Assembly: GCA_022496805.1 (NCBI GenBank)
Contig: CM040086.1
Location: 5,396,501-5,460,500 of the forward strand
DNA length: 64,000 nt
Reading direction: 5' to 3'
Source: Pohlia nutans
Taxonomy: Eukaryota; Streptophyta; Bryopsida; Bryales; Mniaceae
The notes beneath the pieces were generated by a model. That model had not been told where the DNA came from. It saw only the letters and a program-made list of their open reading frames with translations, and searched no databases. Below, in pieces: positions 7,006-54,394 of the stretch. A program made the translations under genes and the position numbers. How positions within the stretch are numbered: position 1 is the stretch's first letter; the number at the start of each line of letters is the position of its first letter.

Positions 7006-8660
7006 CAAATCAAGAACCAAATGGCTAAAAGTGTTTGTGCAATATTCTTCCACTGTAAATGGTGGCGTGCAAAAAGTATCCCATACACACCTCTGTTGTA
7101 GTAGCTCCGAACATCCTCACCAGAAATCTAAAGCAGCTCTTGTCCCAGAACTGAAGCAACAACAACAGAAGCAGCTCCAGGCCGGGTCCTAATCTGCAGC
7201 CGAATCGGAGTCCACTTTTCTGGGATTGAAGTAGTACTCTTGCCATGGGACAGAAACATATATATAATTGTGATCAGTACTGCAACTCACCAGGACAGAA
7301 TGTGATCAATCAGAAAAAAGCCATTTTACTTATATATTTCTTTGTCTTAAATGGGTTGTCCGCGTCTTAATCCACGGCCGTCCTTTGCAAAGAATGAGTG
7401 AGAACACTGCAACAAAATGGACAAAACAAATAAATAAATAAAAATTATATATATATATATATATATATGTTACACAATATATACTCACTAGCTACTACTC
7501 GTGCCCATTTGCGGGACCCTTTGATATATAAATTGAAATCCCACAGGCCGGGTGTAGCTATGGCGACTGTTATACTAGAACAAGTTTAAAAGCTCAAAAG
7601 GGCCTTTATAAGCTTAGAGCAAGTACAGCTTGCTCCTTCAGACAAACAGAACCTCAGACTGTCTGAGAGAGAGAGAGAAGAACCCACCGTCCCAACATTC
7701 AACATGATCTTTACTTTCTTCGTTGAAATTCAGTCTCTTCTGTACTTGCAAGCCTTGTTCCGGAATCTCTCGCACCGGCCTGTGAAGTGAGACCCAAGCT
7801 TCAATTCATGGCTACAGAGACCACCTCGAATTAATAAAACTAATCCTCCACTCCAGAGCAATCGTCAGTTGCAGGAAACATTCATTAATTTCGTCCATAC
7901 TTTTATTTAATATAGTCCAATCGATATATCTCCCAGTTCTAACTTACTTGAATATATGTAATTGTATATGCTCTAATGAATGAATGAATGAATAAAGAAA
8001 TTATAAGCAAGCCCCTTGGATTGTTTTTCAAACACTCCTGCTGGATGATATACCGTAAGTGGAAGGCACGGTCGGCACTTTCATGTTGAATAATTAATAA
8101 AAACTAAAACAGTGGAGGTCGGCACTTTCAAAAGTAATTATTAAGAAATCGGCTCTTAATAGGTAACATTAATTTTTTTCCGGCCGTTAAAACATTTATT
8201 ATTATTTTTTGTCTACAATTTTCACTGAGTGTTACGTTTTCATCTAGTTTTGAGTGTTATTTTTTTTTAAACTTTTTGTTGACTTTATTTTTGTTGATTT
8301 TGACAAAAACACTTAATACATTTATTTATATTTTCGACATTTTTGGGGAATTATTTTCTGCCCACCCTGCCTTCCACGTACGGTAAGTCACTTGCAGAAA
8401 CAGCGCAACTTGGAATGTTTCGAAGCGTACAAGATCTAGGAAATATCTCAAGCAGTTGTTGATAATGTAATATAATATAATACATATTTCCAGGCAGCAT
8501 GATTGAGAGTGAGTGAGTACTTAAGCATGTTTTGAGCGGTCGTGTCAGTAAATATTTATACAAACGATAACCCTGAATCTGTGTTAACACGTAAGAAGCA
8601 TCATTTTCAAGTGACCCTTGAGGCATGTGACGCAACTCATTTTGTGTGTACCTGCTAGCT
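7006..8660. other. Intergenic with (AT)n run
   Basis: Contains an AT dinucleotide run at about 7446-7468. The minus-strand open frames at 7025-7246 and 8351-8635 have no recognisable domain. No other feature is supported. Confidence 0.35.
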
Positions 8661-13343: not shown

Positions 13344-14548
13344 AAACACGCAATTCGCTATTTACGCACTTGGCCATATAATCATGCACTTGGTCCCCGG
13401 AAGCATTAAAAATATTGTCATAAAAATTTCTCTAAAAAACAACCATTTTTGTCGTTCTACAATTACTTTCATTGTAAACAAACAATTATTTAATTTAATT
13501 TTTATTCTTATCTTTATCTTTTATCTTTATCTTTTATTTTATTTTTTCTTTTATCTTTTCTTTATCTTGTTTCATTTATCTTATTTCTTTCTTGTCTTCA
13601 ATTTATTTTCCTTCTTGTCTTCTTCTTTTTCTTCTATTTTTTTCATTCCTCTTGTGGCAGCCGCAAATCCTTCGCCCGCACCAAAGACAAAAAAAGAAAA
13701 AAAAGAAAAGAAAAGAAAAACCTTTTTTTTTTTTTTTTTTTTTTATTTTTTTTTATTTTTTTTGGAGTTCGTCTTCTTTTTTGTTTGGGGCTCATGAACC
13801 CTGAAAATAGAAATTTAAAAAAATAAAAATTTAGGGTTCAGCCGCCGGCGGCTGAACCCTAAACGGCGGAGGATGCACAAAAAAAAAAAAATAAATAAAT
13901 AATAAAAATAAAAAATAAAAAATCTATTTTTAGTCTGCTGTGGGCTAGACGGTGCGCGGCCGCGCACCCTTTGCCTCATTTTCTCCTCTCCTCCTCTCCT
14001 CCTCTCCCTCTCTCCCTCTCTCCCTCTTCTTCTCTCTCCCTCTTCTTCTCTCTCCCCTATATATATGAGGAGAGGGGAGAGGGGAGAGAGAAGAAGAGGG
14101 AGAGAGGGAGAGAGGGAGAGGAGGAGAGGAGGAGAGGAGAGGTTCATGAGCCCCAAACAAAAAAGAAGACGAACTCCAAAAAAAAAAAAAAAAGTTTTTT
14201 TTTTTTTTCTTTTTTTTTTCTTTTTTTGTCTTTGGTGCGGGCGAAGGATTTGCGGCTGCCACAAGAGGAATGGAAAAAATAGAAGAAAAAGAAGAAGACA
14301 AGAAGGAAGACAAGAAAGAAATAAGATAAATGAAACAAGATAAAGAAAAGATAAAAGAAAAAATTAAATAAAAGATAAAGATAAGAATAAAAATTAAATT
14401 AAATAATTGTTTGTTTACAATGAAAGTAATTGTAGAACGACAAAAATGGTTGTTTTTTAGAGAAATTTTTACACAAAAAATTTTAAGCAAGATTTGCTCA
14501 TGAAATGAACGCACTTGACCAAGTGCATAAATAGCGAATTGCGTGTTT
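13344..14548. mobile_element. Large foldback element LIR-1
   Basis: It begins AAACACGCAATTCGCTATTT and ends with its inverse. Both arms carry ATTGTAAACAAACAATT, a TCTTATCTTTATC run, a CTTCTTGTCTTC run, GCAAATCCTTCGCCCGCACC and long A/T homopolymers; the centre is CTCTCCCC/GGGGAGAG near 14055-14075. The left arm also holds a 28-base palindrome (AGGGTTCAGCCGCC and its inverse) and a CGCGGCCGCG palindrome. The right arm lacks this block, a deletion of roughly 170-200 bp. A related unoccupied site is near 41725. Open frames here are low-complexity Phe/Lys/Ser runs, not genes. Confidence 0.85.
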
Positions 14549-17357: not shown

Positions 17358-17382
17358 TGCGGTGAGCGTGGATCGAACACGC

Positions 17383-17425
<43 letters not shown>

Positions 17426-17430
17426 CCCGC
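17358..17430 (-). tRNA. tRNA-Phe (GAA)
   Basis: Read on the minus strand it starts GCGGGGATAGCTCAGTTGGG, has the anticodon stem-loop CAGACTGAAGATCTG with anticodon GAA, the B box GGTTCGATCC-type stretch (GTGTTCGATCCACGC) and ends in CACCGC plus discriminator A: 73 bases, no intron. It matches the plant nuclear tRNA-Phe as I know it. TTTT follows at once on the transcribed strand (17354-17357), a pol III terminator. Only five bases separate it from the upstream split tRNA-Val. Confidence 0.95.
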
Positions 17431-17798: not shown

Positions 17799-18322
17799 CC
17801 CTATAGCGCGCCGGCGTCGAGAATCTGGATGCCGGATGAATTTGAGCAGCTCGACTTCTGTAGGTACCGGATGTTTTTCATCCATTTTTAAATTATTTTC
17901 ATTCTTGTGCTAGTTGAATACCATTTGTACGGTATGGATCTTCCAAATAAGATAATGTGAATTTTTGAAAAATTACAAAAAACACGCAATTCGCTATTTA
18001 TGCACTTAGTCAAGTGCGTTCATTTCATGAGCAAATCTTGCTTAAAATTTTTTGTGTAAAAATTTCTCTAAAAAAGAACGATTTTGTCGTTCTACAATTA
18101 CTTGCATTGTAAACAAACAATTATTTAATTTAATTTTTATTCTTATCTTTATCTTTTATTTAATTTTTTCTTTTATCTTTTCTTTATCTTGTTTCATTTA
18201 TCTTATTTCTTTCTTGTCTTCAATTTATTTTCCTTCTTGTCTTCCTTCTTGTCTTCTTCTTTTTCTTCTATTTTTTTTCATTCCTCTTGTGACAGCCGCA
18301 AATCCTTCGCCCGCACCAAAGA

Positions 18323-18358
<36 letters not shown>

Positions 18359-18944
18359 TTTTTTTGTTTTTTTTTAATTTCGTCTTCTTTTTTGTTTGGG
18401 GCTCATGAACCCTGAAAATAGCAATTTAAAAAAATAAAAATTTAGGGTTCAGCCGCCGGCGGCTGAACCCTAAACGGCGGAGGATGCACAAAAAAAAAAA
18501 AAAAAAAAAAAAGTTTTTTATTTTTTTATTTATTTTTTAGTCTGCTGTGGGCTAGTGGGTGCGCGGCCGCGCACCCACTGCCTCATTTTCTCCTTTCTTC
18601 CTCTCTTCTCTCTCCCTCTCCCTCTTTCCTCTTCTTCTCTCTCCCCTCTCCCCTCTCCTCATATATATAGGGGAGAGAGAAGAAGAGGGAGAGAGGGAGA
18701 GAGGGAGAGGAGGAGAGAAGAAAATGAGGCAGTGGGTGCGCGGCCGCCCACCCACTAGCCCACAGCAGACTGAAAATAGAAAAAAAAAAACTTTTTTTTT
18801 TTTTTTTTTTTTTTTGTGCATCCACCGCCGTTTAGGGTTTAGCCGCATGCGGCTGAACCCTAAATTTTTATTTTTTAAAATTTCTATTTTCAGGGTTCAT
18901 GAGCCCCAAACAAAAAAGAAGACGAAATCAAAAAAAAAAAAAAA

Positions 18945-18992
<48 letters not shown>

Positions 18993-19722
18993 TCTTTGGT
19001 GCGGGCGAAGGATTTGCGGCTGTCACAAGAGGAATGAAAAAAAATAGAAGAAAAAGAAGAAAACAAGAAGGAAGACAAGAAGGAAAATAAATTGAAGACA
19101 AGAAAGAAATGAGATAAATGAAACAAGATAAAGAAAAGATAAAAGAAAAAATAAAATAAAAGATAAAGATAAAAGATAAAGATAAAAGATAAAGATAAGA
19201 ATAAAATTAAATAAAATAATTGTTTGTTTACAATGAAAGTAATTGTAGAACGACAAAAATGGTTGTTTTTTAGACAGTTTTTTAGACAATATTTTTAATG
19301 CTTCCGGGGACCAAGTGCATGATTATATGGCCAAGTGCATAAATAGCGAATTGCGTGTTAAAAGTGATTAATGTCAAGTTTCGATCTTAGTTCAAAAAGA
19401 AAGACCTTAAATATGATTTTCCATAGTAAGTAGAATCAAATAATGGAAACCATACCATCTCGTAGTGCATGTCATTCTAATTTCATTACAGTATTTTTAA
19501 AAAAAATTGTGTTCATTTTGGATTTTTAATTGAATTTCAAGAGAAAACCTTGCAAAATTACTTTTAAAATATTAATAATAAATATGATGAATCCAACCGT
19601 ACGGATGTTATCTACACATTGACATTTGCAACTTTGTTTTATACGTCAACTCCATTTCCGTTTTTCATCAACCATTTTATAACAAATCTTTGAAAACAGT
19701 GTCGAATCGGGACGTTAAAGGG
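17799..19722. mobile_element. TTAA element nested in MITE copy A
   Basis: TTAA at 17795-17798 and 19723-19726. It starts CCCTATAGCGCGCC and ends GGGACGTTAAAGGG. Copy B of the host MITE has the uninterrupted site CATATTAAGAAGAAAC at about 27721-27736, which confirms the boundaries and the 4-bp duplication. About 545 bp is its own sequence; the rest is the foldback at 17981-19359. Confidence 0.9.
17981..19359. mobile_element. Large foldback element LIR-2
   Basis: 1379 bp, starting AACACGCAATTCGCTATTTA and ending in its inverse. The two arms of about 685 bp are nearly symmetric around TATATATA at 18661-18668. Each arm carries the block missing from one side of LIR-1, including the palindrome around GCCGCCGGCGGC (left) or GCCGCATGCGGC (right) and a CGCGGCCGCG-type stretch. 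A/T homopolymers of 20-40 bases lie in both arms. Open frames here are low-complexity artefacts. Confidence 0.88.
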
Positions 19723-23600: not shown

Positions 23601-24009
23601 CTAAGGTAGACGACCTGTTTCCGATCACCTTAAGCAATTCAGCATACTTCCGGTGGAGTAACGAATAGGCAAATAAGGGCATGTTTACACCAAAAAACTT
23701 GGGCTCCAACCCATGAACACAAGTGGTACTTTGTTCAAGGGATGAGACCATTGTAAGTGGGGTACCATGCTTGAAACAAGGGACTTATAAGTAGGTAGTG
23801 GCCCAAACATTTGGTGTAAACCAAGAGAGTTGAGTCATGGCCCATTGTGCACTTGGGCTGAATTTTTAAAGTAGAGTTATCCATAGAAGTTTTTTTTAAT
23901 TTACCCCATACTCATAGAATCTTTTGTAGTCAATGCTGCCCTACATCTTTGAGTGCTGTTTTGTTCAATCTCTCTCAAATTTTGGCCGTTTATGATGATT
24001 TTTGGCATC

Positions 24010-25410
24010 ATGGAAAGAAGAGAACGAGCTCTAGTGGTACTAGCTACGTATTGGTGCTTTTATATGTTGATTCAACATGTTTTGAGCATGCAAGCCCTCA
24101 TTTTGGGCTTTGAATTGCAAAATTCAGCTTTGGTTGTGACTTTGTGTGGCTTGTGGAATAGAAAAGAGAGAGGTGTGTGGAGCATTGATAGGCAAGAGGG
24201 ATTTTGTGACAGACATTTGATGGGCTCTTACACGGAGTTAATGTTTCGGGAAAGAACTAGAGTTTCACATGCTACCTTTCAATATCTTTGTGAGGAATTG
24301 GGTCCTTTTTTGAGGAAACAAGATACAAATTATAGAAATTCTATTACAGTAGAGAGAAGAGTGGCAATGTCATTGGTGAGGCTTGGAAGTGGAAATGGAT
24401 TGCAAATTGTTGGTGATTTATTTGGAGTAGCCAAAAGCACTGTTTCAAAGATAGTAAGGGACTTTTGTAGAATGGTGAGATTACATCTTCAAAAGAAATT
24501 TGTGACGTTTCCAAGTGAATATAAATTTCGGGAATTAGCAAAGGACTTTGAAGCATTACATGGCATTCCATATGTAGTGGGAGCTATAGATGGATCTCAT
24601 ATACCAATTATAGCACCAGTAAATGGGGGTGAAGATTATTATTGTCGGAAATCTTTTCACTCTGCATTGTTGCAAGGCATAGTTGATACAAATTGCATTT
24701 TTTGGGACTATGAGTTTGGATGGGCCGGGAGCATGCATGATTGTACAGTTTTTAAACTTACAAAAGTGGGTAGAAAATGCATTGAGGGAAAATTACTACC
24801 TTACAAGCTAATTGGAGATGCCGCTTATCCTGTAAGACCATGGATTTATTGTCCTTTCAAAGGAGGAGTGGATGTTTCTCTTCCGGCATATAAAGCGCAT
24901 TGGAACTTCATTCAAAGTTCTACTCGTATGTGCGTGGAGCGAGCTTTTGGAATTTTGAAGTGTAGGTGGAGGATCATTATGAAGCGTATGGAATGTCCAT
25001 TGAAATATGTGCCGGACGTGGTTGCTAGTTGTATTATTTTACACAATATTTGCATTATCTCGGCAGATGTGTTTGATCGGGAATGGATCAAAGTTGCTGA
25101 AGAAGATTTGGAAAGAAGAGAAATTGAAGGACAAATAGCAGCTGGACAAGAATTGAGGGGAGAGAGGACTGCAATTGCTGAAGTGAGAAGAAGGATAGGA
25201 ATTGGAAGAAAAGAACCAATTACAATTGCGGAAGAGGATTATGGAGAGGCTGAAAACCTTTTTTTGATCAAAGAAGATGAAGAAGAATCCATTTTACTTC
25301 AAGAAGCAACTGATTCACATGTGTCCATAGCCAAAGCCCTATGGAAATATCACTTGCAAAAAAATTCTACAATTGTTTTTGATGATACGGATAGTGATAT
25401 GAGTATGTAA
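24010..25410 (+). CDS. PIF/Harbinger-type DDE nuclease (transposase)
   Basis: 466 aa from ATG 24010 (MERRERALVV); an in-frame ATG at 23992 and a GTG at 23953 lie upstream, but I prefer 24010 because the peptide before it is hydrophobic and unlike the family. A helix-turn-helix stretch is at about residues 115-158 (ERRVAMSLVRL to VSKIVRDFCR). The DDE_4 nuclease follows: AIDGSHIPI with Asp194, GWAGSMHDCTVF with Asp244, GDAAYP with Asp270 and VERAFGILKCRWR with Glu310. Asp194, Asp270 and Glu310 are the likely metal-binding triad. The C-terminal tail is acidic. The frame is unbroken, at the family's usual length. Confidence 0.95.
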   Translation: MERRERALVVLATYWCFYMLIQHVLSMQALILGFELQNSALVVTLCGLWNRKERGVWSIDRQEGFCDRHLMGSYTELMFRERTRVSHATFQYLCEELGPFLRKQDTNYRNSITVERRVAMSLVRLGSGNGLQIVGDLFGVAKSTVSKIVRDFCRMVRLHLQKKFVTFPSEYKFRELAKDFEALHGIPYVVGAIDGSHIPIIAPVNGGEDYYCRKSFHSALLQGIVDTNCIFWDYEFGWAGSMHDCTVFKLTKVGRKCIEGKLLPYKLIGDAAYPVRPWIYCPFKGGVDVSLPAYKAHWNFIQSSTRMCVERAFGILKCRWRIIMKRMECPLKYVPDVVASCIILHNICIISADVFDREWIKVAEEDLERREIEGQIAAGQELRGERTAIAEVRRRIGIGRKEPITIAEEDYGEAENLFLIKEDEEESILLQEATDSHVSIAKALWKYHLQKNSTIVFDDTDSDMSM

Positions 25411-25415
25411 TAGTC

Positions 25416-26924
25416 TTAGAATTTATTTACTAAAGCTGCCATGTGAGCTTCCATCATACTAAGCAATGTAGAAGTAGATTTGAAGCTCTCAATCATGTCT
25501 GTGCTATTTTTCACTACGGATTCTAGAAATCCTTCTAGTCTATCTGCCTTGGTTTTTTTTTCACCTATTTGAACAGATTTCTCAGGTGTAGGTGACTCTT
25601 GAATACTCTCTTGAGCACTTGCTGGAATTTGGTTACTTACGCTTGCTCTTGTTCCATTCCACAAATCCATTTGTTCAAACCATTTAGAATGCTCATGGCG
25701 GTCATTGCCTGAAACCTCATCATGCCGCTTATCATTCCTGTATTGGGTGAGAATACCTCCGTATTTCTTCTTGCAAGCTATAGCAGTTCGAGAACATCCT
25801 CGAATTGATGCTGCCATACGAGCTTCAACCTTCAACCATGCATTTTGACCTTCAAAATTTACATTCACCACATGTTTAGAATGCTTATTGAATAACACAC
25901 ATACTTCATAAACATTTGAAAGATGAAAAAACAAGAAAAGAACACTCTAAAGGCCTCTAAGTGGCAATGAAATTTACATTCCAGCACATACAACCTCACT
26001 GAAAAATCAAATAAGAATGGAATTATGCATTGATTGTACATTGGGATGTGAGAAGAGTATTGAGTTGGGTGGATGAACCTTGGGTGCCCACTTGGAGGCA
26101 AGAGGTCCCCGGTTCAAACCCGGACGGTGGCTTGCTTTTGCCCAAGCCGCGACTAGTCTAAAGATTTAATGGGGGGGAAAGGGGGGGCCTCATACGGGGC
26201 CCAATTGGCCCTTTTCAGCCCGTCAGGCGAAGGCAAAGGCACCAAAAGGCACCTCGGTTTTGGACAAACATTTTGCACTAAGTAAAAAAATCATCAATAT
26301 TTCTAAATATTGAAGCTGTAATCTATAAATTGAGCACATACCTTGTTTTTTGGCTGCTTTCGAAAATTCTTGGGCCAATTCTCCACGCACAGCAATCAAT
26401 GTCTCTACTTCTTCATCTTTCCAGTGTAAGCTCTCATCATTGTCATCCTTCTTACCTTCTTCAAAACATGCCTTCTCTTCAAATTTCTTGCTCTTCTTTG
26501 CTTCCTTCTCCCCTCCTTTGGACTTTGTTGGACCTCTACCTCGCTTCTTAGGAACAACCTTCGATTCTCCTTCCTTCTTCACTTCTAGCAATACACTCTT
26601 GCCAACATCCCTAAAAACCTTGGGCTGTGAGAAAAATGGTGGCTGCAAAAAATTGGAAGACTGTAAAAATTGTTGATTGTGTGAAGAAATTTGAGATGGA
26701 GGTTGATATCCAACTTCTTGCACCTCATTGTCACTATACGGCAATCTAACATACGGAGATTGAGAGAAACTATTGCCCACATTTTGAAATGCACTTGGAA
26801 CTTTCAATGATGGACCGTGGGTCTGAAATTGAGGAATAGAAGAGGAGCTCATCATCCAAGCTGAATTCTGACTATAAATTTGAGGCTCACTTGACTCAAC
26901 AACTTGAGCATACCCCCCTTCCAT
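25416..26924 (-). CDS. Harbinger Myb/SANT-like DNA-binding protein
   Basis: Two exons: 26342-26924 (ATG at 26924, MEGGYAQVVE) and 25416-25849, joined by a 492-bp GT-AG intron with matching phase; 338 aa. The N-terminus is Gln/Ser/Pro-rich and a basic Lys/Arg stretch (KKRGRGPTKSK) probably targets the nucleus. The trihelix-like Myb/SANT domain runs from HWKDEEVETLIAVRGEL to CKKKYGGILTQY across the intron. In this superfamily such a protein binds element ends and helps bring the transposase to the nucleus. Its stop is 5 bases from that of the transposase. The intron holds a SINE-like insert. Confidence 0.9.
26060..26235 (+). repeat. tRNA-derived SINE-like insert in the Myb gene intron
   Basis: CCCCGGTTCAAACCCGG at about 26108-26124 contains a textbook pol III B box (GGTTCAAACCC). 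GGGTGGATGAACC upstream could be a degenerate A box. The following GC-rich stretch (GGGGGGGCCTCATACGGGGC) differs from the AT-rich transposon around it. Exact ends are not resolved. Confidence 0.5.
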
Positions 26925-27850
26925 TGCACAACTAATTAGAAAAAAAAATGAGAAAAACACAACAACCACAATACACAAGCAATCTAAAGAGGTGAAGAAG
27001 TGAGCAAATGCCTTCTCCTTTTCAATCAACAATTACAAACTCCAAAAAAAAAATTGTATTTTAAGCTCCAAAAGAATGAGACGTTGCACTTCCTACGGTA
27101 ATTTCTACCTATGGTAGTAAACGGTAACTTCCACCTAACGGTAATAGTGCAAACAAAAAAAATCCTCAAAAAAAAATCAGGCCAAAAACATCCTAGAAAC
27201 AATCAATAAACAAATATATATGAATGACCGAAAAAAAATTCCCTGAATTTCCTCTTGGAATTCGGGGTTGGGTACCTCCGAGACCTTCCCAACAAAAACT
27301 ACCCGTAGGTCCAGGAAATCACTATTCATTTCGGCCAACTAGGATTCCAGCAAGGATTTTCATCCACTGAAAAAAATTTGAGCTACAACCCAACTTTGAT
27401 TTGGTGTAAACCCAAAAGCGAGGTACCATGCCTACCTTCCAATCAAAGCCCTCCACCTCTTTGGGCTCCAACCCAAACTTCCTTGGTGTAAACAAGCCCT
27501 AATTTTGCAGTGTAGGGAAATATATTTGAAGAAGGTCACATATTTTTGAACAAATTTTCGGGCAATATTGAATTTACTACGAATTTTCAAAGTGATTCTC
27601 TCCAACCCGTTCTCGCAATATAGGCTGACCTATTTCCAAGAACTGTAAAACTAAATTTCAAGAACACATGATATCATACTAACTCGGTAACAAATTTCTA
27701 TTCTCTACGCCAACCATTCCATATTAAGAAGAAACATGTTTCCGTCACCGTTTACGAATGAATTCGAAAATAATGCAGGCTGCTTCACGGAAATAGGTCG
27801 CCCTATATTGCGTGATTGGGGGCCTGATCGGAAACAGGTCGTCCACCTTA

Positions 27851-45895: not shown

Positions 45896-46494
45896 TTGTA
45901 TTGTATTGTAGATGTTAGTAGAACAAAAGCCATACGCCTTGAAAGGTTTTCTCCATAGCCTCTCAATTCAAATGTAAAGAAGGCATTAATTGTCAATAGC
46001 CTAGGGGAAGTCACTTCCAAATATTCTATAATGGCATGTGAACAAATAGAGGGTCCAAATAAATCATTGAAAGTAATTTTATGAATGAATTACATTAATA
46101 TTAGATGCTCAAAATTGATTACAAGAATAAAAATGAGAATATTTTTTAATATTTCTAATTATAGTAATAATTGCTTTTATTTTGGGGTGCTGTTAAATAC
46201 CCTATTATTATAGGTGGTACCTAAAAATACATAGACAATGATTTCACCAAATCAACAGCCAAAAACATTCAAGATTACTAAGTGCTTAAATGAAAAAAAA
46301 AATTGTTCATTTTTCATATCTTAATTGAAGGTAAAGGGCAAGGTTAGTGGAAAAAAAATTGGTACATAGTAGAGTTAACCAAAAAGAGTGTCTCAAAGTG
46401 GAAAGAATCTCAAATTCACCTTAGACTCGTTTTGAGTTCAAAAAGACTGCAAAACTAGTCTATTATAGTGAATTGAAGAATAATTTAAAACAAG

Positions 46495-47117: not shown

Positions 47118-47449
47118 TCAATAGAGATAAGATTGATTATCATCCGTTAGATGTTGATTAGATTCCCTCTCCATATTTAACATCACCATAGTATCCCATT
47201 CTGCCCAACGCTCATCAGGGTTGTCTCTTTCAAGTATACTCACTATTTCACTGCTTTCTATCCAAAATTTATTACAGCTATTTCTTTCTAGCATATTCAC
47301 TACTTCACTCATTTTAGGCTTGGGTGATGGAGAGCGTTGCGTACATAATAAAGCCACCTGTTCATTCCAAATGATTCATTTGAGTATAACAGTGAAAAAG
47401 AAGTTCAACTCTCTAACAATTATATTGACATTTAACCTAACTATTTAAC

Positions 47450-47492
<43 letters not shown>

Positions 47493-49828
47493 CATATATG
47501 AATTAATAGCCTTCAATCATTAAACAAAACATATATAAAAAATAGAATGAATAAACACAAGACAAAAGTTAGAGCATTGCTTCATTCAAAAATTATAAAA
47601 AAGAGCTAATGGCAATTGCAAATTAGTTTTGTAGTGCATCATGCAACTTTCATCCTTATATAATACAGGAGGTTTATGTATTACTTTGCGTTCAAATACA
47701 ATAAACTACCTACCAACCATCATCAACAAAAACAAAATTATATGTTTAAACATGCAACTGTACAATTATATGCATCACTTTAAAAAAAACCATGCCCTTT
47801 ATACAAAGTGTTTAACAAATACAAGTTTAGACTTTTACCCACCTGAAGTAAGGCATCAATATCCATCATGCTGTATTCATTGAGATTAGGATCTACCATC
47901 AACTCCACTTTGTCCTCATTCACCAATTGTTTTACCTGAAATTGAAAAAACTTCAATAATGAACTTTAAACATTTACATCTCTATGAAGTTTTATAAAGT
48001 ACTAAATAAACTTTCATATATTATCTAGAAAATGCAACAAATATTTCAATTGCAGTTTGTATTAATCTAATCATTTGATGCTAACTTAAATTAAATTATA
48101 TAAATATTCACTAATAGCACTATTACAACATTCAAATATACAGCATATTGATTTGTATCTTCTTTGTGGGTTTTGGTTAGTCTTCTGTTTATACAACTAA
48201 AGTTTAAATACATGTAGTAATTACTTTATACAAAGTTGGATGACTCACCAAATCCAACAACATCATATCTTTGTTGTTGACAAGGTGAGATAAGCTTATA
48301 GCTCCCTGTCCAGTGATTAGCTGTAGCAATGTAATTCCATAACCATACACATCATTTTTCACTGAATTCTCTCCATTATACAAATACTCTGGCGCAATGT
48401 GGCCACTAGTCCCTTGAACCACTTGTGCCTCAAACTGATCTAAAAAAGTGTTTGGAAACTTGACCAAACCAAAATCTGCAACCAAAGGCTCAAATTCATC
48501 ATCCAGAAGAATGTTGTCAACTTTGACATCACGGTGAATGATCTTTGGGCTACATTCTTCATGCAAGTATGCTAGTCCTTTTGCTACTCCCAAAGCAATG
48601 CGTTTTCGCATTTTGAGGCTTAGGGCAGGCGATCCATAGTCAAGTTCTGCATACAAATTACGTGTAGGATCAAACTACAATAAAAATTAAAGCTTGAAAC
48701 TTGAGTGTGCAATGAAAGTATATTATTCCAATGCAATTATGGATCTCAGAAAAGAACATAATCTTTATATATATATTGTGTATATATATATATATATATA
48801 TATCTCTCTCTATATATATATATCTATATATATATATAAAGTCAAGAGTTGCTATAAATACAATTCTAAGATATTTTTCTTGAAATACACAATTCTAAGA
48901 AAAATAATGAACATTTAACTAAAAGATTATAACATTCTTGTATATCAAATCCTTCTCAAACCATCTATTTTAGAACATTCATCACTTGCATTTCTAAGTG
49001 TGTTCTTTTGCAGCAATACATACTTTTTAATTGCATAGATACACTTCCATTTGACATGTATGGATAAACAAGAAAACGCTCAGTTGGAGTTGAGCAAAAG
49101 CCATATAATCGTAATAAGTTTCGATGTGTTCGTACGTTGAATGATTGAACCTAACACACCTCACAACAAATTCCAAAATGTTAATTTAAAACTAAAACAC
49201 AACCTTTGATTTGATTTCTAAAACTACATACTCTTTATAATAATATAATAAACAACACAGTAGTAAATTCTAGTGTTAAATGAAGTAGTAAGCAACCATG
49301 CATCAATTTAGGATTGCATCATTTTATCAACTAAAGAGCTTTCAATAAATAGAATTAATTTGCCACTTAGAATTAATTAGCCATTTTGTATTTAGAACAT
49401 ATAACTATTGGTATCATGAACTAATTATAAGCTCAAAAGTCTTAAACTATATTTGGCTAAATGAAATTTACCTCTGCTTGAAATTGTTGCTCACAAAATG
49501 GATTGAGGTTTAAATTTCCGTGCTTAACAGCTAGTAGTGTTCCATCAGAAAGTTGGGCCTTAAAAACTTTGCCAAACCCACCGCTTCCTATTTCATATTT
49601 GAAAAATTCTGTTGCAATTTGCAACTCGTAAACAGAATAGTGCACCAATTGTATCGGATGTGTTTCCATCTCAATTGCAGCTTTAAGCTCTCCGACAATG
49701 GTGCACATATTTGGTCGATGTTTGCTTTGGGGTTCTACACATCGCATAGCCAACTCTGCCACCTTCCACATGACATCTAAATTGTATTGGCCATTTAGAC
49801 TTGGATCCACGATCTCCTCTATTTTATC
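47118..49828 (-). CDS. Tandem-kinase locus, part 3: SERK-like kinase domain
   Basis: Exons (minus): 49472-49828 (shared with kinase 2), 49024-49150, 48249-48646, 47843-47935, 47118-47357, all with GT-AG introns and matching phase. The domain begins after [18 protein letters not shown]. It has the glycine loop GSGGFGKVF, Lys in AVKH, Glu in FQAEV, then [20 protein letters not shown], the catalytic loop [15 protein letters not shown], metal-binding [15 protein letters not shown], and ends [20 protein letters not shown] near TGA 47118-47120. All catalytic residues are present. The order and motifs are those of SERK/NIK-type receptor-like kinases, but without leucine-rich repeats or a membrane segment. 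The first exon also carries the end of the preceding kinase, so this is a fusion. Confidence 0.85.
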
Positions 49829-52630
49829 CTCCATTTAACAAGTCCTCACATGGTACGTTCATGTAACAAGTAAAAGAATTGCGTTTGTGAGTATTGATAT
49901 AATTATTTAATGATACTATAAAAGAAATTGAAAGACGTAAACACAAACTTCAAAAAAAGAGGCCTTTTGAACAAACCGATTGAATCAATTGTAATCCACG
50001 TGGAGGTTGTGCACAAATTAGTTCGAGTAATACAATGCCAAATGCATAAACGTCACTCATATTTGTGAGATTGTTGGATATATAATACCTGCAGTATACA
50101 AAGATGCACTAAATTAAGTTACGAATTCCTACAATTGATTGGCAAAAATGAATAATACAATGTCATTGGTCTTTGGCATAAAAAAAATCAAATTTAAAAT
50201 GAAAAGTCTAAGCTAGTTCACATTATTGCTAATCGTCTACCAAAAATTGAGTTTTGGGGGATTAGATGAATTAGTAAAATCACTTACTCAGGGTCAAGAT
50301 AACTAATATTTTCATAATCAGTAATAGTATTCCAATATTTCGTAAGCTTGAACCAATTTGGAAGTCCAAAATTAGCCACTTTAGCTATCAAATTTCCATT
50401 GAGCAAAATTTTATTGCTCCTGAAATTCAAATGAAGTATCATTGGATTGCACTCCTCGTGTAGATACTCCAATCCTGATAAAAGAAGTTTCTAAAATTAA
50501 AAAATATCAAGATTCTAAAAACATATACAATTGATCAAAAGCCATTGCATAAAAATAAAACATGTCACTTTAATTAAAAAGGCTAAAAGATTAAACATGA
50601 GAGTAATCAAATAATTTTACAATTAAGTAATTTTCATACTTGCCTTTAGCAGAGTTGAGTGCAATATGCAACCGAGTTTTCCAATCCAAAAACAACTCTT
50701 TCTTTTCTTCACCTCCTACAAGTACCACATTCACTTGCAAATCATTCATTTATCTACTTAGTACAGTAAGACATCTTAATCAAAGATTTTTAGGTAAGAA
50801 CCAAGTTTCAAACTATACATTTGTTGTTACATTTGAAAAAGCCCAAACATGAAATAAATGGAAAAGAACTTAATTTACCATATAGATGTGCTTGCACTGA
50901 GCCCAATGGCATGTACTTGTACAACAAGATTAGTTCATCATCCTCGTTGCAATAGCCCACCAAAGACACAAGATTTTCATGATGGATCTTTTGAAATATC
51001 TCAACCTGAAAAGAAAAAATGATTTAAAATGAAAGTCGTATAGTATCTTAAAATTTGAAGAACTATTTATGATATCCATTAACAATTTTAAAATAACACT
51101 CGCATTGACCAAATATATAATACCTCATTTTATAAATTTTCTGAAACCTTGTATAATGTGAGCCATTATTTGTACATGTAATTTAAAATTAAGATTAAAT
51201 TTTTATAGAAATAAGTGTAAATTTTAATTTTTTTAAAAAACTTGATTTACTTCATAAATTAGTTACTTGATTGAAATCCATAACACGTTTTATTTTAAAT
51301 AGAAATTTTGAAAACAACCATGCATTGTAGGGAGGTATATAAAAACTTCAAGGCAAGAAGAAAGACTCTAAAAGAATACTTAAAAGAATGTGAATATATT
51401 CATTAATTAACATGAATACATTTTAAACAAATTCCTTGTAGATGACCGCATTGTTGAACGATCTATATTAATAAAATTTTGAGGAATTGCTTAGAAGAGT
51501 TTATTACATTGGTATTAGCCCCTAACCGTTGTGTGGTTAATATTTTGGACATTTTTTGTGTTGCTTTTATTTTTAAAGAGCTGTTGCTTTTGCATCTAGT
51601 GTTTGGTTTCAATAAAATTTTCCAAAAACGTGTGTACACTAGTCTAGTTTGTGTGTTAAAAATTTCAAACCAATCTAAGATGTAATGAATTTTGGGAAAT
51701 CATTTTAGTACACAGGTCTTAATTTTAGTTCACCAAAGTGCATTTTGATGGCTATGACTTTAGGGGCTTGTTACTCCTTCATCCAATGTCCATTTTGAAT
51801 TTTTAAAAATTGTTAGGTTAGATTTTCCTTGAAATTTAGTTGTTATGATTAAAAATTATGTCAATCCAAGCTATTCTGAATGTTTGGAAATCATTTTAGT
51901 GTTTAGGTCTATTTTCGGCACATTTTACTTTTTGAGTCTGATAAATCACTTTTTGGGTTTCTTTTTGATATTTCAAAGACATCAAAGATATATCATTCAA
52001 AAAACACTTGTACTAATGTGTTTTTATGATGATTTTGAATCACTTTATAATTTAAAGTGTTTTCATTTGAGTAGGTTTAGAAATCAAATTCACCTCTAAC
52101 GTGTTGCTAGAAAATTTCAGCATCCATTTTTGATATTAAAATATTATGTTCTTACAAGCTATGTGACCAAATGACTCCAAGGTTGATCCACATTGTTTAC
52201 AACATGAATACTGCAGGATTGTACGGTTGAGATTTTAATACCTCATTTACATTTAAACCTCACTTACATTTGAACACTTAAAAAGAAATGGAGTTTTAAG
52301 CCCAAAAAAGTTAGGGACGCTTAGGGGTTAGAATAAGATTAAATCAAATATGCAATACCTTCATAAATTCTTTAAGACTTTTTTTGAAATCTTTGATTGC
52401 AACCTTCACGGCTACCTCTTGTCCATTGGCCAACTTGCCATAATATATAACACCAAAGCGTCTTTTACCCAATATTTTTGCAAAATCATTGGTAATAGCC
52501 AAGACTTGTGCCAAATTGTATTTGACTTGTCCCAAATTGTAATTGGCTTGTTCCGATACAGGTGTCACTTGTTTTGTAAGACTTGAAATGATATACAACA
52601 CTTCTACTATATTAAAATTTCTATCCAATA
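49472..52630 (-). CDS. Tandem-kinase locus, part 2: pseudokinase domain
   Basis: Exons (minus): 52359-52630, 50879-51005, 50644-50715, 50288-50474, 49977-50088, then 49472-49828 shared with kinase 3. It resembles plant receptor-like kinases (YNLAQVLAITNDFAKILG, then YYGKLANGQEVAVKV, then IHHENLVSLVGYC, then YLDPEYYISNNLT and SDVYAFGIVLLELI). Key residues are lost: glycine loop GKRRFG, HRD changed to HLN in ILHLNFRSNKILL, DFG changed to NFG. Lys in AVKV remains. The exon at 50644 ends in a GC donor (AAAG|GCAAGT). The junction 49977/49828 is the weakest: no strong acceptor, and TAA lies just upstream in frame; [13 protein letters not shown] follows in phase. Confidence 0.8.
51519..52327. mobile_element. 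TTAA-family element with TTAG flanks, in kinase-locus intron
   Basis: It starts CCCCTAACCGTTGTG and ends GGGACGCTTAGGGG. Both flanks are TTAG (51515-51518 and 52328-52331), so the 4-bp duplication is kept but the target differs by one base from TTAA. It lies in the intron 51006-52358. Open frames inside have no recognisable domain. Confidence 0.7.
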
Positions 52631-52893
52631 CTTGAAAGCAAAAGAAATTCAAATATTAATCTAAACAATTTTTGGAAACGTATAAGATTACTTATCTCCA
52701 ATTACTTAAAGTTGCATTTCCTTCTTAACTAAATATCAATCCCAATTAATTCATTCTATTTGATCAGTTTATTATATGTTTACTAATGCTAAACAAAATT
52801 TCATTTATTCATCTTATTTCTAATCTCTTATTTTCAAGTCATCTCCTACAAAAGAATATATTCACAAGCAACATAATTATATGAAAAACTTAC

Positions 52894-54394
52894 ATGACAT
52901 TAGAAATAAACATTTGAGATGTCGTAATTCCCTACAAATTTCACCAAAACAAGGGCGTGTGCTTGCATCTGAACTCCAACATCTCACAATCAAACACCTC
53001 AGTCTTGGATGACATCGAGTGGGCAACTTAGGACGATCACCGTTCAATACTTTTAACTTCACTTTAGATAGGCTACGCTCTTCAAAATAAGGTGTTTCTC
53101 TTGTCAAGATCTCATAACAAACCATAGCAAAGTTGTATACATCACTATTGAAAGGATACTTTTCAACTATGGCATCAACATTTGAGATTTTAACTTGACT
53201 CTCATCGGTAGATAATTTAATCATTTCTGGAGCCATCCATCTTGGGAGAACCCTTGTTGGGAGTTTGATTGCTATATATCAAGCTTTCTTCTTTTGTTTT
53301 TGACAATCCAAAATCGGCCACTTTTGCCAACACATAATGCATCCTTGAACTTATCGTCTTCACATGTTTAATAAGAATATTCATTGATTTTAAATCTCGA
53401 TGGATAATCCTCATCTCGCGCAGATACTCCATGCCTCCTCCAATTTGAAGCATCATATCAATTGCTTCAAATATATCGAACAGATAACCGCGCTCCTTGT
53501 ATTCTTTCATCCTTCTTTGAATTAGAGTAAAAAGGTCTTCATCCATTAGCTCCATGATAATGGAACACTCCCGATCACCTTTTGCATAACCAAGCAAGGA
53601 AGTAATGTTTGGATGACATAAACGTTGTAAAATAGACACTTCATTTACAAAATCCGGAGAACCTCTAACATAAAAAGTCTTCTTAGCAACTTCAACTCCT
53701 AACCACAATGCTTTGTATACAGTAGTAAAGGCACCTTTTCCCAATTTCGTTATTTCTTTTAAAATTTCTTCATCTATTTGAAATGATTCCGGTAAACTAG
53801 TTTCAAAGGGCATTTGATCCATTGGTTGTTGCAGTCTTTCAAATAAAATAGTTGCTAGCTGGTACTCTCTAATAGTTGACTTTTTTGTTTGAAGCAATGT
53901 ACTCACGTCCTCCAACAAGACTTTCCTATCAATGGATGCCTTCTCCTTCACAATTTCAACTTCCGTTTCATAAATACTATCAACTCTGTAGAAAAGAAAC
54001 TATCGAAGGAAGGATTGCGTCAATACTTCCAAACTGAAACCCAATGATGAAATGTGTTCGGACACATTATTCAACAGCATGACAACTTGAATCCATGCAT
54101 CTTGGCAACAACTTCGAATGAAATCTTCTACAATAATAGCTAAATCATGTAGGAGCTTGAAAACTTTGAGGCAATTTGCAAAATCTTCTGGTGATGGAGA
54201 CCCTTTGTTGAATAGAATTAAGAATGATTGTGCACAATCCACAGCCACTCTTAGCTTATCAGCTAGATATTTGCATTGTTCATAGTGGAAGTATGGAGTT
54301 GAAATCCCACTTGGCACAACCCATTTGCGCTTGTCCAATTGCACTACCTCCATACATTTTTTGGTGAGTATCAAGAATTGCTCAGGTGTGTTAT
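52894..54394 (-). pseudogene. Tandem-kinase locus, part 1: N-terminal domain plus TKL-type kinase, with two breaks
   Basis: A single large exon between an AG acceptor (54395-54396) and a GTAAGT donor (52888-52893). The first 130 codons (KKCMEVVQLDKRKWVVPSG on) look helical; I do not recognise the fold, though plant MLKL-like kinases also have an N-terminal helical domain. The kinase has LGKGAFTTVYKA, Lys in VAKKTF, HPNITSLLGYAKGDRECSI, IIHRDLKSMNILI, VADFGLSK, WMAPEMI, CWSSDASTRPCF. Two breaks: TAG at 54000-54002 with the same frame open on both sides, and one extra base in a CCC run at 53244-53246 just before WMAPE. Its donor phase fits the exon at 52359-52630. Confidence 0.82.

Follow-up and report, generated by a model that had tools for sequence, protein, structure and literature searches.

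A putative tandem-kinase locus with an MLKL-like leader, a pseudokinase and a SERK-type kinase in the moss Pohlia nutans

A kinase locus with a broken leader

We analysed a 64,000-nucleotide stretch of the genome of the moss Pohlia nutans (assembly GCA_022496805.1, contig CM040086.1, positions 5,396,501 to 5,460,500; hereafter the window, whose own coordinates are used throughout), in which three kinase domains follow one another in one orientation on the minus strand, from 54394 to 47118. We read this locus as derived from one tandem-kinase gene, consisting of an MLKL-like leader, a pseudokinase of the receptor-like kinase (RLK) type and a kinase of the SERK/BAK1 type, with the leader broken in this copy; we place the probability of this reading at roughly 45%. 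The family to which the locus belongs is best read as a moss lineage of tandem kinases and kinase fusions, in which an MLKL-like leader is combined with exchangeable, bait-like partners.

The three domains in one orientation, which had been proposed in a preliminary description of the stretch, are borne out by open reading frames and Pfam domain matches. Kinases 2 and 3 form a stop-free model of 10 exons and 660 codons (52630-47118, minus strand), with nine introns, eight of them GT-AG and one GC-AG, and none of 2,000 base shuffles of this model remained open. Kinase 2 occupies exons at 52359-52630 (an alternative in-frame acceptor would start this exon at 52600), 50879-51005, 50644-50715, 50288-50474 and 49977-50088, the third of them ending in a GC donor that is identical in the homeologous copy on contig C1. 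The next exon, 49472-49828, is the fusion exon of the preliminary description and does carry the C-lobe of kinase 2 into the N-lobe of kinase 3 (from about 49642) in a single open frame, with neither a leucine-rich repeat (LRR) nor a membrane helix between the two. Kinase 3 continues at 49024-49150, 48249-48646, 47843-47935 and 47118-47357, the last exon ending in a SERK-like ERWAEW tail (compare P0027 and P0034) and the stop codon.

Kinase 2 is degenerate, with GKRRFG as its glycine loop and, in its fourth exon, HLN in place of HRD and NFG in place of DFG. Kinase 3 retains every motif in the table, namely GSGGFG, AVK, HRD, DFG and APE, the last three in its exon at 48249-48646. Two kinase folds thus share an exon and a 660-codon frame, one having lost its catalytic motifs and the other having kept its catalytic residues, which supports the earlier suggestion of a tandem-kinase gene with one pseudokinase. 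Kinase 3 had also rightly been called SERK-like. In the kinase tree, it forms a clade with P0034, a Physcomitrium protein named BAK1, and with P0027 (99/100), although on a long branch, and it shares 65% identity with P0027 over 299 columns. The tree is not fully settled in its bootstrap values, places both window kinases on long branches and leaves other moss SERKs unresolved. A SERK receptor carries an LRR ectodomain and a transmembrane helix before its SERK-type kinase domain; here, kinase 2 adjoins that domain instead.

The leader as a predicted MLKL-like module

The leader is predicted to combine a helical bundle with a TKL kinase, as in MLKL. Its N-terminal helical (MLKL/HeLo-like) domain lies at 54003-54394, with a phase-1 acceptor before 54394, and the brace region and kinase 1 lie at 52894-53999, with HRDLK, DFG and APE kept and GTAAGT following the last exon base, 52894. 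The label TKL-type, given earlier to kinase 1, is correct but understates this architecture. The best two PDB sequence matches of the leader are chains of AtMLKL2 and AtMLKL3. The alignment with 6ka4 spans positions 30-508 of the 516 in the leader profile (E 1.1e-66), and 6lba matches at E 1e-70 over the brace and the kinase, with just 4.0 bits coming from its N-terminal piece. When the N-terminal domain alone was ranked by fold against 990 chains, AtMLKL2/AtMLKL3 chains took ranks 1 and 3. The leader is predicted to have a four-helix bundle and a brace before the kinase fold, and its sequence kinship with MLKL runs along the whole module.

When the leader was searched by fold in its entirety, ordinary kinases took up the lists, the MLKL structure 4btf reaching Foldseek rank 28 with a poor root-mean-square deviation of 19.3. 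Foldseek with the N-terminal domain alone returned nothing at E <= 0.001, and phmmer with the N-terminal piece of the window copy against PDB gave nothing meaningful (best E 0.93). By analogy with MLKL, the leader may have an output in cell death or defence.

In the window copy, the frame that runs from 54394 stops at an in-frame TAG (54000-54002, minus strand) and resumes, unchanged, at 53999. Further on, between 53250 and 53245, kinase 1 undergoes a one-base frame change, the pieces on either side of which each have a Pfam kinase match. No single frame therefore crosses all three domains. With a stop and a frameshift in its leader, the window copy as assembled encodes no full three-kinase protein; the intact triple-kinase protein of the preliminary description is not supported for this copy. 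A 5' first exon of the leader was not found, though no systematic search for one was made.

Errors of assembly, or splicing that removes the lesions, would restore a full three-kinase protein, and it counts in favour of such an explanation that there are just two lesions and that the frame change is a single additional base next to a run of CCC. We consider it very improbable. The lesions are of different kinds, some 750 bases of the leader separate them, and there is none in the 660 codons downstream, and the alignment with the homeolog reads through both sites, with a sense codon at the place of the TAG, within a single uninterrupted exon.

The homeologous copy and the probable ancestral order

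The genome searched comprises 698 Mb in 332 contigs, labelled here as C1, C2, C7, C11, C12, C19 and C21 where they are mentioned. Contigs are paired: in alignments of three locus pairs, drawn from C1/C2 and C11/C12, identity is 88-96%, with one 83-base piece at 81%. Two segments of the window, 34.5-40.3 kb and 56.4-64 kb, have their counterparts in C1:4193001-4243000, where the order is inverted; the matching pieces are mostly 84-96% identical, and the kinase part of the window is 79-84% identical to C1. There, the leader and kinase 1 form one uninterrupted frame of 526 codons, and kinase 2 is open and present exon by exon, in the same order behind the leader as in the window. Homology then stops inside the fusion exon, after LQIATE, which are the first residues of kinase 3.

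Since C1 has an open leader, the pseudokinase and the beginning of kinase 3, the common ancestor likely had all three domains, and their order is likely older than the split between the window and C1 copies. Kinase 3 would later have been lost from the C1 copy and a working leader from the window copy, which also seems likely. A segment at 46367-46462 was considered as the colinear right flank of the deletion on C1 and rejected as a dispersed repeat, so that the LQIATE remnant is the sole basis for the loss of kinase 3. This repeat (46340-46480) has 40 scored matches in the genome, itself included, the others being 85-94% identical. C1 also carries a second leader copy with stops (L024:7851-9490), at a distance of about 20 kb from the open leader, and no kinase 2 match was found after it in L024 or L025.

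Constraint between the window and C1 copies is weak. The ratio of nonsynonymous to synonymous divergence (dN/dS) is 0.54 for the N-terminal domain, 0.48 and 0.37 for the front and back of kinase 1 and 0.51 for kinase 2, while synonymous divergence over the leader and kinase 2 is 0.23-0.38. These values bear on the possibility that the window copy as a whole is a pseudogene of recent origin, whose leader broke recently and whose kinases 2 and 3 remain open for want of time. The TAG and the frameshift fit this explanation, as does the similarity of the leader ratios to that of kinase 2, which is what late inactivation would produce. In substitution-only simulations of the kinase 2-3 frame, 105 of 1,000 frames were still open at 0.03 neutral changes per site and none of 1,000 at 0.10, a level below the synonymous divergence from C1; the first result favours a young pseudogene, the second our main reading. 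On the other hand, all 660 codons do remain open, and an in-frame ATG within the C-lobe of kinase 1 could serve a shortened product. We regard a young pseudogene as rather unlikely, though it is the strongest of the competing explanations. If the locus does descend from one tandem-kinase gene, the C1 homeolog would still provide the leader and pseudokinase, and the window copy would at most yield a product running from within the kinase 1 C-lobe through kinases 2 and 3, or would be a pseudogene in the making.

The junction between kinases 1 and 2

That the leader and kinase 2 were once spliced into a single transcript is suggested by the sequence around the junction, where the donor is better supported than the acceptor. 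The splice from 52894 to 52630 proposed in the preliminary description is in phase in the window, but the corresponding acceptor yields a stop (T|AA) in the homeolog. In the alignment, a second in-frame acceptor 30 bases further on, with the exon starting from 52600, is open in both copies. For the donor, we fetched 12 leader loci, including those of the window and C1, of which 11 were readable (L016 was not). In 10 of these 11, a phase-1 GTAAGT is placed 16 or 19 bases beyond the ELRxLK of kinase 1, L018 being the single readable locus without an exact GTAAGT. Behind the leader, the three extended loci on C19 and C21 have a different RLK-type kinase, which is degenerate in the one of them in the motif table, from C19.

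The locus could instead consist of two adjoining genes, one for an MLKL-like kinase by itself, which has since become a pseudogene, and one for the pseudokinase and the SERK kinase together, starting separately at a site upstream of them. Many of the family members listed, at about 490-600 amino acids, end with the kinase; beyond the donor, the leader frame continues without a stop for 5 residues in the window and about 17 in C1; and kinase 2 of C1 has an in-frame ATG at the glycine loop, lying before it; all of this would suit two genes. In the window, by contrast, no in-frame ATG occurs in the kinase 2 exon until after the catalytic lysine, and for this reason an upstream exon is likely needed. 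The recurrence of the phase-1 donor and the annotation of leader plus RLK-kinase proteins in two other mosses also speak for one gene, and we think the two-gene arrangement unlikely, more so than a young pseudogene.

Annotated leader fusions in other mosses

Relatives were sought in three protein searches, each of which scored the 7,983-7,985 candidates sharing most words with the query and retained the best 120, a procedure that may miss distant relatives. The organism-named proteins among the best 120 of one of these searches are nearly all from Ceratodon or Physcomitrium, with Sphagnum P0185 and Vitis P0174 as exceptions. Among the 339 proteins listed, 119 match the N-terminal domain of the window leader; 51 of these exceed 700 amino acids, and 14 also resemble kinase 2 or 3 in a part other than the leader. 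In none of the leader-matching proteins does a match to kinase 3 reach 45%, and the order of leader, RLK pseudokinase and SERK kinase occurs in none of the 339.

The arrangement of three kinases had been put forward as one not recognised from elsewhere, and among the proteins listed this holds for the order of the domains; three kinases do occur in P0121 (Ceratodon) and P0122, all of them of the leader type. The joining of the first two kinases is better matched, as a leader followed by an RLK-type pseudokinase is annotated in proteins of both Physcomitrium and Ceratodon. The moss proteins annotated with a leader and an RLK-type kinase are P0123, P0132, P0125, P0152, P0154, P0156 and P0164, and P0123, from Physcomitrium, shows 45% identity over 96% of the C1 query. 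Across these seven, the window, C1 and one C19 locus, the second kinase has altered motifs in every case (10 of 10), HRD nonetheless being kept in P0132, P0152, P0156 and P0164. The second kinase of P0132 lacks an N-lobe, which may be an annotation gap.

Precomputed Pfam assignments place further partners on leader proteins, including HSP70 (six proteins), NB-ARC, TIR, WRKY, phytochrome domains, legume lectin (two proteins) and an IIGP-type GTPase (two proteins); these domain names were verified on one protein each, the HSP70 match being weak and partial. Additional accessions are taken by us to be EF-hand, SH3, F-box, ARM and MBOAT. In the proteins scanned, NB-ARC, HSP70 and GTPase partners lie C-terminal of the leader, and TIR, WRKY, phytochrome and lectin partners N-terminal of it. 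Downstream of the leader at L018, a locus on C7, two open frames (L018:2876-3568, plus strand) resemble, in our judgement, the LIM region of DA1/DAR proteins; a Pfam scan of the segments downstream of the L018 kinase gave no match and did not confirm this likeness. In Arabidopsis, CHS3 carries DA1 as an integrated domain.

Two observations weigh against a descent of the locus from one gene in such a family. Most leader fusions are gene predictions from two Ceratodon isolates, in which read-through errors are possible, and the GTAAGT bases, if left unspliced, read Cys-Lys, so that coding could account for part of their conservation.

A possible role in immunity

If the single-gene origin is correct, the pseudokinase and the SERK kinase would serve as bait, to be bound or modified by effectors directed at BAK1-like kinases. 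Engagement of the bait would set the leader free or switch it on, and cell death or defence would then be started by the leader's kinase and helical bundle. Both this role as bait and an immune role of the lineage are inferred. The effectors HopB1, AvrPtoB and HopF2 are described as attacking BAK1 (PMC8150971). An immune setting is supported indirectly, by a Ceratodon protein (P0199) in which the same leader is followed by NB-ARC, by the moss class of proteins that join a kinase to a nucleotide-binding site (NBS) and LRRs, and by the response to the kinase of one of its members.

A wider proposal, which we advance as speculation and consider doubtful, is that mosses possess one-chain immune receptors with an MLKL-like executor behind a conserved intron and exchangeable baits (pseudokinases, a SERK kinase, HSP70-like domains, a GTPase), and that a receptor with a SERK/BAK1 bait is being split between homeologs here. 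Angiosperm tandem kinases are a source of resistance in cereals, and their route to cell death is an active question. Should the proposal hold, the moss leader with its pseudokinase and SERK domains would unite sensor and executor in one chain, and mosses, being genetically easy, would offer a testable system for that question.

Other features of the window

A 485-codon frame at 23953-25410 (plus strand) has a Pfam match to the transposase DDE_Tnp_4 (E 1.1e-24) and also to Plant_tran, and presumably belongs to a PIF/Harbinger-type element. A 269-codon frame at 26223-27032 (minus strand) has no Pfam match. Two related groups of inverted repeats lie at 13406-14486 and 18044-19186, with arms of 154-249 nucleotides that are 76-96% complementary, and a tRNA gene is located at 17358-17430 on the minus strand.

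Comparison with known systems

Moss MLKL-led tandem kinases were absent from the matches listed in searches of openly available literature. The moss leader shares with AtMLKL2/3 the N-terminal helical bundle, the brace and the C-terminal kinase fold (PMC9950082, PMC10951266). It differs in keeping HRD and DFG, whereas AtMLKL kinase folds have HGD or HGE at the HRD site, and in having further domains C-terminally. Kinase residues are likewise kept in wheat Pm13, as described for that protein. Plant MLKL has been described as a family across seed plants (PMC9950082); if our reading is right, its range would extend to mosses, with catalytic residues kept.

The closest moss counterpart is the class of kinase-NBS-LRR proteins (PK-NBS-LRR, PNL or Pkn-NLR), which P0199 resembles. 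In the accounts cited here, a conserved phase-0 intron separates the kinase from the NBS in this class (PMC3352924, PMC11218826), and the kinase of a P. patens Pkn-NLR gave a modest and variable response in N. benthamiana (PMC11218826). The window locus differs in that kinase 1 is followed by kinase 2 rather than NB-ARC, with neither NBS nor LRR, and in the phase of its donor, which is 1.

Among plant tandem kinases, WTK1/Yr15 and RPG1 also join a kinase and a pseudokinase in one chain, lacking a receptor ectodomain; such proteins are reported to be able to form when kinases of different subfamilies become fused, and one P. patens protein is included among the 92 analysed (PMC6170490). Here, by contrast, an MLKL-like leader, broken in the window, precedes the RLK pseudokinase, and a third, SERK-type kinase follows.

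In several angiosperm proteins, an RLK kinase is followed by a SERK kinase, or the SERK domain is repeated (P0013 of Lonicera, P0018 of Escallonia and P0024 of Taraxacum). P0001 of Malus, with three SERK domains in one annotated protein, shows that at least three kinases are annotated elsewhere, and long Asteraceae matches probably also carry at least three. In seven of the nine flowering-plant proteins looked at (P0012, P0014, P0020, P0021, P0024, P0028 and P0035), it is the SERK domain that departs from the consensus in the glycine loop, HRD or DFG, whereas in the window it is the RLK domain. The tree does not support these proteins as orthologues, and because kinase 3 groups apart from their SERK domains, the fusion described here is likely an independent event. 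Integration of SERK kinases into tandem kinases seems to recur.

Lr9 (WTK6-vWA) and Sr43 join a kinase to further domains that are hypothesised to be decoys, the authors of Lr9 proposing this for its kinase 2 and vWA domain (PMC10260399). In the moss locus, the bait would be a pseudokinase together with a SERK kinase, and the leader resembles a cell-death executor. If this is correct, an MLKL with integrated decoys would represent an analogue, free of nucleotide-binding leucine-rich repeat receptors (NLRs), of the integrated domains of NLRs.

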